Below are positions 1 to 40,631 of a DNA stretch of 40,631 nt, piece after piece. Origin of the DNA: Ruminobacter sp. (lineage in GTDB: Bacteria; Pseudomonadota; Gammaproteobacteria; Enterobacterales; Succinivibrionaceae); the NCBI GenBank assembly GCA_017940385.1, contig JAGAYS010000064.1, positions 1 through 40,631 on the forward strand. Direction: 5' to 3'. Every line of letters starts with the position of its first letter. Position 1 is the first letter of the stretch. The notes beneath the pieces were generated by a model. The model had not been told where the DNA came from and made no database searches. It saw only the letters and a program-made list of their open reading frames with translations. The translations under genes were made by a program, and so were the position numbers.

Positions 1-140
1 GGCACAGGAGGGATGGGTATGTATCAACATGTTCGAACGGTGCAATTAGGTAACCGCACCGTATCATTGTTTTGAACCGCCGTATGCGGATCCGCATGTA
101 CGGTGGTGTGAGAGGCGTGGGGGAACCCCGCCTACTCGAT
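1..140 (+). mobile_element. Group II intron, 3' end (domains V and VI); 5' part outside window
   Basis: Bases 76-107 form a textbook domain V hairpin: ACCGCCGT pairs with ACGGTGGT, ATGCG pairs with CGCAT around a GATC tetraloop, and the 2-nt GT bulge sits at the expected place. Domain VI follows (about 112-134; AGGCG/GCCT and GGGG/CCCC around GAA). An unpaired A at 134 lies seven bases from a CTACTCGAT end, as for the branch-point adenosine and the AY 3' terminus of bacterial group II introns. The intron reads on the plus strand and ends 13 bp beyond the stop codon of the minus-strand chemoreceptor gene. Its reverse transcriptase ORF, if present, is upstream of the window. I infer a 3' splice boundary at about 140. 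Confidence 0.8.
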
Positions 141-3440: not shown

Positions 3441-3815
3441 TTTTAAATAATTATGAGAAATAAAAACAGGTATGTACTTCAAATTATTGAAAAGGTCCCA
3501 TACATGGACGGTGAAGTGACCTCTGAAACGGGCTGTATTCCTGCAGCGTGATGCTTATTTAAAACATAAGCAGGGCGTATTTGAATCTGATTTTCAAACG
3601 TGCTTTTGAATTATTATTTCAATACCGTGCAGTTTTTTTATTCGGAACTTCGTTGTGATAACTGCAGGATTCAGGCAAGCCGTAAGCACTGGGGGAGAAA
3701 ACTGACTGGGGAATGAGTGAAAAATTATTAGGATAATTATGAAACGTTGGTGATATGTGTAATACGGGACAAATATAAACCGTTGAGATATCAGTCAAAC
3801 ATAAATGATTTGCAG

Positions 3816-3843
3816 TTGCATTATTTTAATTTTGTCAGATAAC
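3816..3843 (+). promoter_or_regulatory. Promoter of small-RNA module A
   Basis: TTGCAT (3816-3821) and GATAAC (3838-3843) are separated by 16 bp, and the RNA's AGAGCC begins 9 bp after the -10 box. The same 16-bp and 9-bp geometry recurs at 40476-40518 in front of a related RNA, which makes chance unlikely. Confidence 0.6.
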
Positions 3844-3852
3844 TAAATCAGC

Positions 3853-3925
3853 AGAGCCCATCTGCGCCTGGACATGTAATGCATCGCACTGTATGTACAG
3901 CGGACCATTGAAGGGCCTTTTTTTT
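3853..3925 (+). ncRNA. Structured small RNA upstream of an abi_2 remnant (copy A)
   Basis: The segment starts AGAGCC and contains TCTGCGC and ACAGCG-x-ACCA. It folds as an outer GCCC/GGGC stem with an inner arm (CGC..TG/CAGCG, continued by GACAT/ATGT). It ends GGCC plus eight T, like an intrinsic terminator. A related 46-nt RNA at 40513-40558 keeps the same blocks and the same promoter spacing. The outer stem there is GCCTTTC/GAAAGGC, so the sequence differs but pairing is kept. An Abi_2 fragment begins 13 bp downstream. This is the arrangement I recall for RNAs associated with abiF genes; I could not compare it with a covariance model. Confidence 0.6.
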
Positions 3926-3937
3926 GAATGAGATTCT

Positions 3938-4163
3938 ATGGTTCAAAATGTGAAAAAAACTATGAGTTATGAGGATCAGATAAAAAGACTCAGAGATTTT
4001 CATAGGCTTTCGATTGATGATGATGGTGAAGCTCTTAAGATTTTTAAGAAGATTAATTACTGCAGATTAAGCAGGTACGGAATTGGTTTGACTTCTTTGG
4101 GGAATTAAAGACGAGTATAGGCCTGGTATTTCTTTAAAATATTGGTTGTACAGGCTTCAGTAA
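3938..4163 (+). pseudogene. Abi_2 (AbiD/AbiF-type abortive infection) gene remnant
   Basis: The first reading frame gives 56 residues and stops at 4106-4108. It contains SYEDQIKRLRDFHRLSI and FKKINYCRLSRYG, matching the Abi_2 N-terminus (query-loop helix, then INYYRLSGY). A second frame, 4101-4163, continues with GISLKYWLYRLQ, as expected of the next Abi_2 helix, so a frameshift near 4095-4105 is likely. Nothing recognisable follows. Abi_2 proteins are HEPN-type RNases thought to act as phage-triggered toxins, a family-level statement. The gene is dead here, but its RNA module upstream looks intact. Confidence 0.55.
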
Positions 4164-4288
4164 ATCTGATTAAAAAAAGCAGTGTAGCCAGTGCCGTCAG
4201 GAGACCTGAGCTAAGATCAATACAGGCTGATTTAAATATAATTCAGCTTAGATACCTGTTCCCTCCCTGTCTCCCAAAAACAGCCTCC

Positions 4289-4326
4289 AAAAAAAAACGG
4301 CACGGTTTTAATTTCCGTGCCGTTTT
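4289..4326 (-). terminator. Terminator of the moxR-bat operon
   Basis: A 12-bp inverted repeat (AAAACGGCACGG / CCGTGCCGTTTT, loop of eight) is followed on the minus strand by a run of T. It lies about 20 bp beyond the batD stop. The plus-strand side also ends in TTTT, so it may act in both directions. Confidence 0.85.
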
Positions 4327-40475: not shown

Positions 40476-40503
40476 TTGACGATTAACCAGGTTATGGGAT
40501 AAT
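40476..40503 (+). promoter_or_regulatory. Promoter of small-RNA module B
   Basis: TTGACG (40476-40481) and GATAAT (40498-40503) are 16 bp apart; AGAGCC starts 9 bp further on. Spacing is identical to module A at 3816-3858. Confidence 0.65.
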
Positions 40504-40512
40504 GACAGTAAT

Positions 40513-40558
40513 AGAGCCTTTCTGCGCTTTGAACAGCGTACCAGGGAAAGGCCTTTTT
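40513..40558 (+). ncRNA. Structured small RNA (copy B), related to the abi-linked RNA at 3853
   Basis: A 7-bp outer stem (GCCTTTC/GAAAGGC) encloses CGCT/AGCG around TTGAAC. The RNA then ends CCTTTTT. Shared with copy A: AGAGCC, TCTGCGC, ACAGCG-x-ACCA, GAA, GGCCTTTTT. The short form lacks the extra inner arm of copy A. What follows is cut by the window edge; an ATG at 40588 opens a frame (MMLKSIGIGAELFH) that I cannot assign. Confidence 0.6.
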
Positions 40559-40631
40559 GAGGTGACTGTCAGATTCAAAGGTGGAGCATGATGTTGAAGT
40601 CTATAGGTATCGGAGCGGAATTATTTCATAA

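Follow-up and report, generated by a model that had tools for sequence, protein, structure and literature searches.

A relic AbiF-type unit with a divergent RNA in a Ruminobacter genome, and related promoter-hairpin leaders in front of AAA-ATPase_like/PDDEXK_9 genes

What is a small structured RNA doing in front of the broken remains of an abi_2 gene, and what does it mean that the same promoter and RNA recur at the far end of the same stretch of DNA? The question is raised by 40,631 nucleotides of a Ruminobacter sp. draft genome (contig JAGAYS010000064.1, positions 1 to 40,631, hereafter the window), in which a sequence-only reading had seen an RNA-antitoxin/HEPN-toxin unit whose protein has decayed and whose RNA remains. 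A computational follow-up confirms that the observation is real and partly supports its interpretation. With a probability of about 0.8, we read the first site (copy 1) as the relic of a type-III-like AbiF unit, and the second (copy 2), together with its sister copies, as captured promoter/attenuator leaders.

Copy 1 begins with a weak sigma-70-like promoter on the forward strand (3815 to 3843), whose -35 box GTTGCA (3815-3820) and -10 box GATAAC (3838-3843) are separated by a 17-nt spacer. The promoter is present as first described, with a low score of 7.0 on a scale where AAA-linked and Abi_2-linked copies mostly reach 9-11.5. Ten nucleotides after the -10 box, a distance shared by copy 2 and by relatives, comes an abiF-type hairpin RNA (3854 to 3925, forward strand), whose 72 nt and GGGCC-T8 end agree with the roughly 73-nt structured RNA ending in GGCC-T8 of the sequence-only reading; its outer stem and U8 make up an intrinsic terminator, and an ATG follows 12 nt on, at 3938. 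In the search of its own genome, copy 1 scores 63.7 bits with our model R1, which has copy 1 itself among its building rows. One A.A mismatch interrupts the outer stem, so that copy 1 fails a strict stem descriptor that copy 2 passes, and it folds no better than its shuffles, with z between +0.62 and -0.39 depending on which of three frames of reference is used. The stem mismatch and the weak promoter show that the RNA unit is itself decaying. Close to the start of the window (75-140), at the contig end away from copy 2, an Rfam scan also gives a 46.8-bit match to a group II intron domain (RF00029).

Behind this RNA lies the remnant of an abi_2 gene for an AbiD/F-type HEPN toxin (3938 to 4157, forward strand), which corresponds to residues 3-71 of a 307-residue protein, split over two frames, the remainder being missing. 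When an intact relative was compared with the whole window by tblastn, it matched at 54.7% over 53 amino acids (3947-4105) and continued in a second frame (4107-4157), with E=8e-15, which bears out the Abi_2 N-terminus seen just downstream of the RNA. This homology is a tblastn result, the Pfam scan of the 56-aa remnant peptide having returned 0 families (the PF07751 cut-off was not reached), and even the intact relative is recognized by Pfam only from residue 33 onwards. The relative carries an RNICAH stretch near residue 206, which we take to be the HEPN active-site motif; the remnant stops at residue 71, and the HEPN active-site region is therefore absent.

The remnant abuts the C-terminal tail of an IS605 OrfB/TnpB-like gene (4151 to 4258, forward strand; tblastn E=3.8e-8). 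The tail stretch is a dispersed repeat in the genus, and Pfam recognizes PF07282 and PF01385 in a copy from genome G025. A wider stretch (3620 to 4290, no strand assigned) is missing from the congener G024, where 112 nt take the place of the 671 nt of the window, and both an insertion in the window lineage and a loss in G024 are possible. A type III toxin-antitoxin system has an RNA antitoxin, a terminator and a working toxin gene, and the toxin of copy 1 is broken. Only the first fifth of the toxin gene is left here, joined to an IS605/TnpB fragment, with the promoter and RNA lingering and starting to decay. In an intact unit, one promoter would give a short hairpin RNA that serves as its own terminator, where most transcripts would end, and read-through would yield an Abi_2/AbiF HEPN ribonuclease that the RNA would bind and silence.

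The repeat claimed 36.7 kb away is real (36.66 kb), with the same distance between -10 box and RNA; its promoter spacing was said to be the same, and here the two copies differ, with a spacer of 16 nt in copy 2. The promoter of copy 2 is sigma-70-like (TTGACG-16 nt-GATAAT, 40476 to 40503, forward strand) and is followed by an abiF-type hairpin RNA/terminator of intact architecture (40514 to 40558, forward strand), recognized by the descriptor, by model R1 and by a hold-out profile. It has an 8-bp outer stem with one U.G pair, a 1-nt bulge, a 3-bp inner stem CGC/GCG and a 6-nt bulge UACCAG, an arrangement of stems and bulges that matches abiF exactly, and the hairpin folds better than shuffles (z -2.16, -2.46).

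The gene behind copy 2 is present as its first 14 codons and 2 bases (40588 to 40631, forward strand), where the contig stops. It can be read with the help of two sister copies elsewhere in the genome: contig C55 repeats the final 152 bases of the window at 98%, and C52 does so at 96% over 149 bases, giving three near-identical copies of the leader. C55 and the window contig (C61) break off at the identical base of the gene, and C52 reads through into an intact 592-aa protein, P0002, with PF09820 at 114.6 bits and PF08011 at 53 bits, both over the Pfam cut-offs. Copy 2 therefore precedes, by way of C52, an AAA-ATPase_like/PDDEXK_9 gene, which is not a known toxin as a type III system would have. 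A second Abi_2 gene at this place is ruled out, and the own genome (a 70-contig draft, 93.86% complete) gives no Abi_2 match at E<=0.001. The earlier suggestion that an orphan RNA could neutralize a toxin of the second locus is accordingly not supported.

The nature of copy 1 becomes clear from its relatives. The same hairpin lies 0-20 nt upstream of Abi_2 in the genomes G022, where the frame contains one TAG, and G029 and G043/G044, where it is open, and also before Abi_2 in the Succinivibrionaceae record UBA3769 (L300). A structural descriptor that asks for 6 bp or more in the outer stem, 3 bp in the inner stem and bulges of 1/6 or 2/7, used with its optional GC-rich filter, matched 58 of 78 distinct Abi_2 upstream regions, taken from the best 80 of at least 552 named Abi_2 loci, against a shuffled mean of 0.65; by this descriptor the motif is missing from the other 20, and the 58 include four loci whose bulge or place looked off (L298, L337, L342, L343). 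That Abi_2 genes stand downstream of homologous modules elsewhere, as the sequence-only reading expected, is thus borne out. In viral contigs the descriptor was found within 10-60 nt of Abi_2 in 21 of 51, against 3.15 after shuffling (20 against 0.2 with the GC-rich filter); a looser scan over 300 nt, with neither GC nor distance filter, gave a much weaker contrast (34 of 51 against 17.2). Most of the named Abi_2-upstream loci have a T-run directly after the stem, so that the fusion with a terminator is not peculiar to this family. The toxin of the intact relative is homologous to PbAbiF (8vz6) over residues 16-291 (E=2.3e-20).

A hold-out sequence profile, built from 26 Abi_2-upstream RNAs and none from this genome, places both sites at the top of the window, copy 2 with E=1.3e-4 and copy 1 with E=2.3e-4, the next hit standing at 6.4. 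Removing the four Succinivibrionaceae rows as well leaves copy 2 at the top (E=0.0097) and takes copy 1 out of significance (E=1). One could argue that both sites are unrelated ordinary terminators, alike by chance, given that both are terminator-like and that copy 1 is no stabler than its shuffles, but the profile, the gene neighbours in relatives, the shared bulge, the promoter spacing and the descriptor count of 58/78 against 0.65 all contradict this explanation, which we regard as extremely improbable.

The abiF motif was reportedly defined in 2017, in a paper describing 224 candidate structured RNAs. The Rfam check proposed for both sites came out negative: RF03085, the abiF model, has no window match at gathering (37 bits), none at either site even at E<=10, and none in the six family loci supplied, so that we do not class the window RNAs as members of RF03085 and call them only related and divergent. 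The model itself looks too narrow, since it reported just 6 of the 17 hairpins of matching architecture that were scanned upstream of Abi_2 (loci among L272-L334; 4 over the cut-off, 2 just under, 11 unreported). A chain of bulge and inner-stem forms leads from RF03085 (A-AGC-CUCUC-GCU-CAAAUC) through A-CAC-CUCUC-GUG-UCAAAU and A-CGC-CUCUU-GCG-UACCAN to the form of the window. This chain, the architecture and the genes that the RNA precedes in relatives uphold the original idea of a unit of the RNA-antitoxin/HEPN-toxin type with a decayed protein and a retained RNA: the unit to which copy 1 belonged is of a known type, and the RNA left from it is divergent.

A rigid pattern had no match in the own genome, a null that says little because the pattern demanded extra loop bases and an exact ACCA. 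Model R2, in which AAA-linked rows dominate, was run with stricter filters on 394 genomes of the order and had matches at E<=0.001 in 11, all inside Succinivibrionaceae. Model R3, run on 49 genomes picked for carrying Abi_2, marked 57 places in 48 of them; among ten that were inspected (one, L387, being the already known locus L291), Abi_2 stood behind the RNA in seven (one broken, one on the opposite strand) and was absent in three. At one place, L384 (G434:C23), the RNA lies 184 nt before an ORF that presumably encodes a DUF1016-type nuclease, to judge from its appearance, and another copy in that genome stands ahead of Abi_2. A viral pattern scan yielded 32 stretches, with an outer stem of at least 6 pairs in five (L159, L165, L175, L177, L184), of which L177 looks like chance. 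The prophage contigs L159 and L184 share the flanks of L165 and keep promoter and RNA with abi_2 deleted, an orphan RNA on a phage. By eye, RNA hairpins in L175 (~400-460) and L137 (~1211-1400) adjoin the 3′ ends of tRNAs or tRNA-like sequences, as though an integration event had left them there.

Between copies 1 and 2, where outer-stem covariation had been claimed, there is a single full compensatory change (C-G/U-A), which stands, and one mismatched A.A pair in copy 1, which does not fit. Alignment A1, of six rows, has two double-changed pairs, with a score reached by 3 of 500 shuffles and a double-change count reached by 179. The structure-fitted alignment A2 (38 hits, 36 distinct) pairs in 92.6% of cells, has 8 of 10 pairs double-changed, and its score is reached in 0/500 shuffles. 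A5 consists of 26 of the 38 distinct motif rows (without the four odd loci named above) and three rows of the window's own genome; double changes affect 6 of its 9 pairs and 33 cells, its high pairing being partly by construction because the rows were picked for pairing. The expected covariation among homologues is seen in A2, and A4, the 26 AAA-linked rows, covaries no better than shuffles (score reached in 138/500, pairing in 68/500).

Leaders of the copy 2 kind were sought with R1, which at E<=0.05 marks 55 places in 24 of 56 Succinivibrionaceae genomes. For 38 of these the downstream gene was read, leaving out G044 (the same as G043), both window sites, G050:C61 at a contig end and 13 of the weakest (<=25.4 bits). 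There are 22 AAA genes (G023 C65 and C73 being apparently two assemblies of a single locus), four cases of the same linker cut by a contig end, three Abi_2 genes, one case undecidable at a contig end, and eight that are other, orphan or chance; G004:C78 and G037:C63 look like chance. AAA-linked leaders occur in eight genomes (G000, G023, G027, G028, G048, G049, G050, G051) of three genera, and it is this leader before AAA-ATPase_like/PDDEXK_9 genes that constitutes the new part of our analysis, well supported as a genomic fact and weakly as a function. Across 25 AAA-type rows, the exact boxes of copy 2 (TTGACG-16-GATAAT) are kept in 18, the outer stem is fully paired in 15 and the inner core is intact in 13.

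The AAA genes themselves are far more common than the RNA. PF09820 genes are present in 56/56 family genomes, against R1 matches in 24, and G027 alone has at least 39 PF09820 matches and six RNA places; a general leader of PF09820 genes is thus rejected. Some full-length or nearly full-length AAA frames have an eroded RNA (G048:C133, G049:C81, G050:C180), and before others no RNA was found (G024:C67, G027:C1, G051:C17, G023:C34). Among 32 chosen upstream regions of P0002-like genes, E<=0.01 was reached in only three, two of them previously known. On the AAA protein tree the RNA label requires five changes and 9 of 18 inner branches are left open, which does not settle one capture against several. 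The literature searched offered no RNA partner for these DUF1703-type proteins and no function for their very abundant family, and sequence search gave no solved structure; nor did we find a report linking abiF RNA to the family, within a search whose reach excluded the 2017 paper and Zilberzwige-Tal et al.

Could the AAA-linked leaders be a second RNA-controlled toxin system, in which an abiF-type RNA binds and restrains an AAA-ATPase_like/PDDEXK_9 nuclease? The order of promoter, hairpin/terminator and effector gene is that of AbiF units throughout the eight genomes and three genera, one pair change in G048 (L034) is compensatory, and the G000 copies retain the canonical NACCAG bulge. However, the AAA-linked rows lack covariation beyond shuffles, their bulge drifts to GACCGG and other forms, and (near-)full-length AAA frames accompany eroded or missing RNA, so that such a system seems to us unlikely. 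Given these frames and the excess of PF09820 genes over R1 matches, we do not call copy 2 an antitoxin, and favour a captured promoter/attenuator.

Alternatively, copy 2 and its sisters might be kept as free-standing trans antitoxins against the AbiF of incoming prophages, the AAA gene being incidental. According to PMC12373285, the AbiF RNA of Clostridioides difficile acts in trans as well as in cis, and read-through is restricted by its terminator. Prophage contigs with an RNA and a deleted abi_2 (L159, L184), Succinivibrionaceae Abi_2 units on a contig classed as viral in IMG/VR, and the RNA in family genomes without Abi_2 fit the same idea, but an RNA core intact in just 13 of 25 AAA-type copies, and copies that go with AAA genes instead of standing free, make it improbable. 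The simplest account is that an abiF promoter-attenuator leader was captured, once or several times, by AAA genes, copy 2 and its two sisters most likely serving as a promoter with a built-in attenuator; the direction of capture would be from Abi_2 to AAA, since the RNA is far more widespread with Abi_2.

Other partners were seen as single cases. In G043:C111 (L139, 320-1033), the RNA lies 22 nt before a dCTP-deaminase-like gene (PF22769), of which viral contigs searched with the protein hold no relative; G043 also has an RNA with Abi_2 on another contig. In G025:C211 (L142, minus strand), an RNA at 1035-1084 is followed 79 nt on by a HEPN gene (PF05168; 563-955) and behind it by a nucleotidyltransferase-domain gene (291-587). 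The contig is small, the outer stem of its RNA is wholly different (TTCCACC/GGTGGAA), and its upstream region presumably resembles a Bacteroidota promoter, so that the contig may be foreign. A bolder, rather doubtful proposal would see in the abiF-type hairpin a portable cassette for RNA control, moved from the HEPN toxin to unrelated effectors (AAA/PDDEXK_9 in three genera, and the single dCTP-deaminase-like and HEPN plus nucleotidyltransferase cases), as attenuator and/or antitoxin of a new toxin class.

The case shows members of an RNA class that the Rfam model misses, and a toxin lost with its RNA lingering. Moreover, an RNA leader before an abundant nuclease family makes it testable whether an RNA antitoxin can swap partners or is reused as a mere promoter plus attenuator.

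Among known systems, AbiF with its RNA has been reported as the forerunner of Cas13 and its guide RNA, in PMC12373285 and PMC12737573, and in the latter the bulge nucleotides of the PbAbiF RNA are reported to inhibit the RNase. The PbAbiF-AbiFr pair (PDB 8vz6) is comparable through the homology of its toxin to that of the intact relative. With AvcID, a type III system of the RNA AvcI and the deaminase AvcD (PMC10511110), the leader before the dCTP-deaminase-like gene in G043:C111 shares the order of an RNA followed by a deaminase-type gene. The AAA-ATPase_like/PDDEXK_9 family is represented by the sister of the window-end gene, which carries both domains. The closest comparison is with the abiF RNA of RF03085 and C. 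difficile RCd22-AbiF. Unlike RF03085, with AGC/GCU and CAAAUC, the window RNAs have CGC/GCG and NACCAG and lie below Rfam detection; RCd22 combines two motifs with a terminator that is separate from them, whereas here one hairpin is fused with the terminator, the toxin of copy 1 is broken and copy 2 precedes another gene. All share the outer stem, the 1-nt 5′ bulge, the 3-bp inner stem and the 6-nt 3′ bulge, and, as in RCd22-AbiF, a promoter stands ahead of the RNA and a terminator ahead of the Abi_2 gene.
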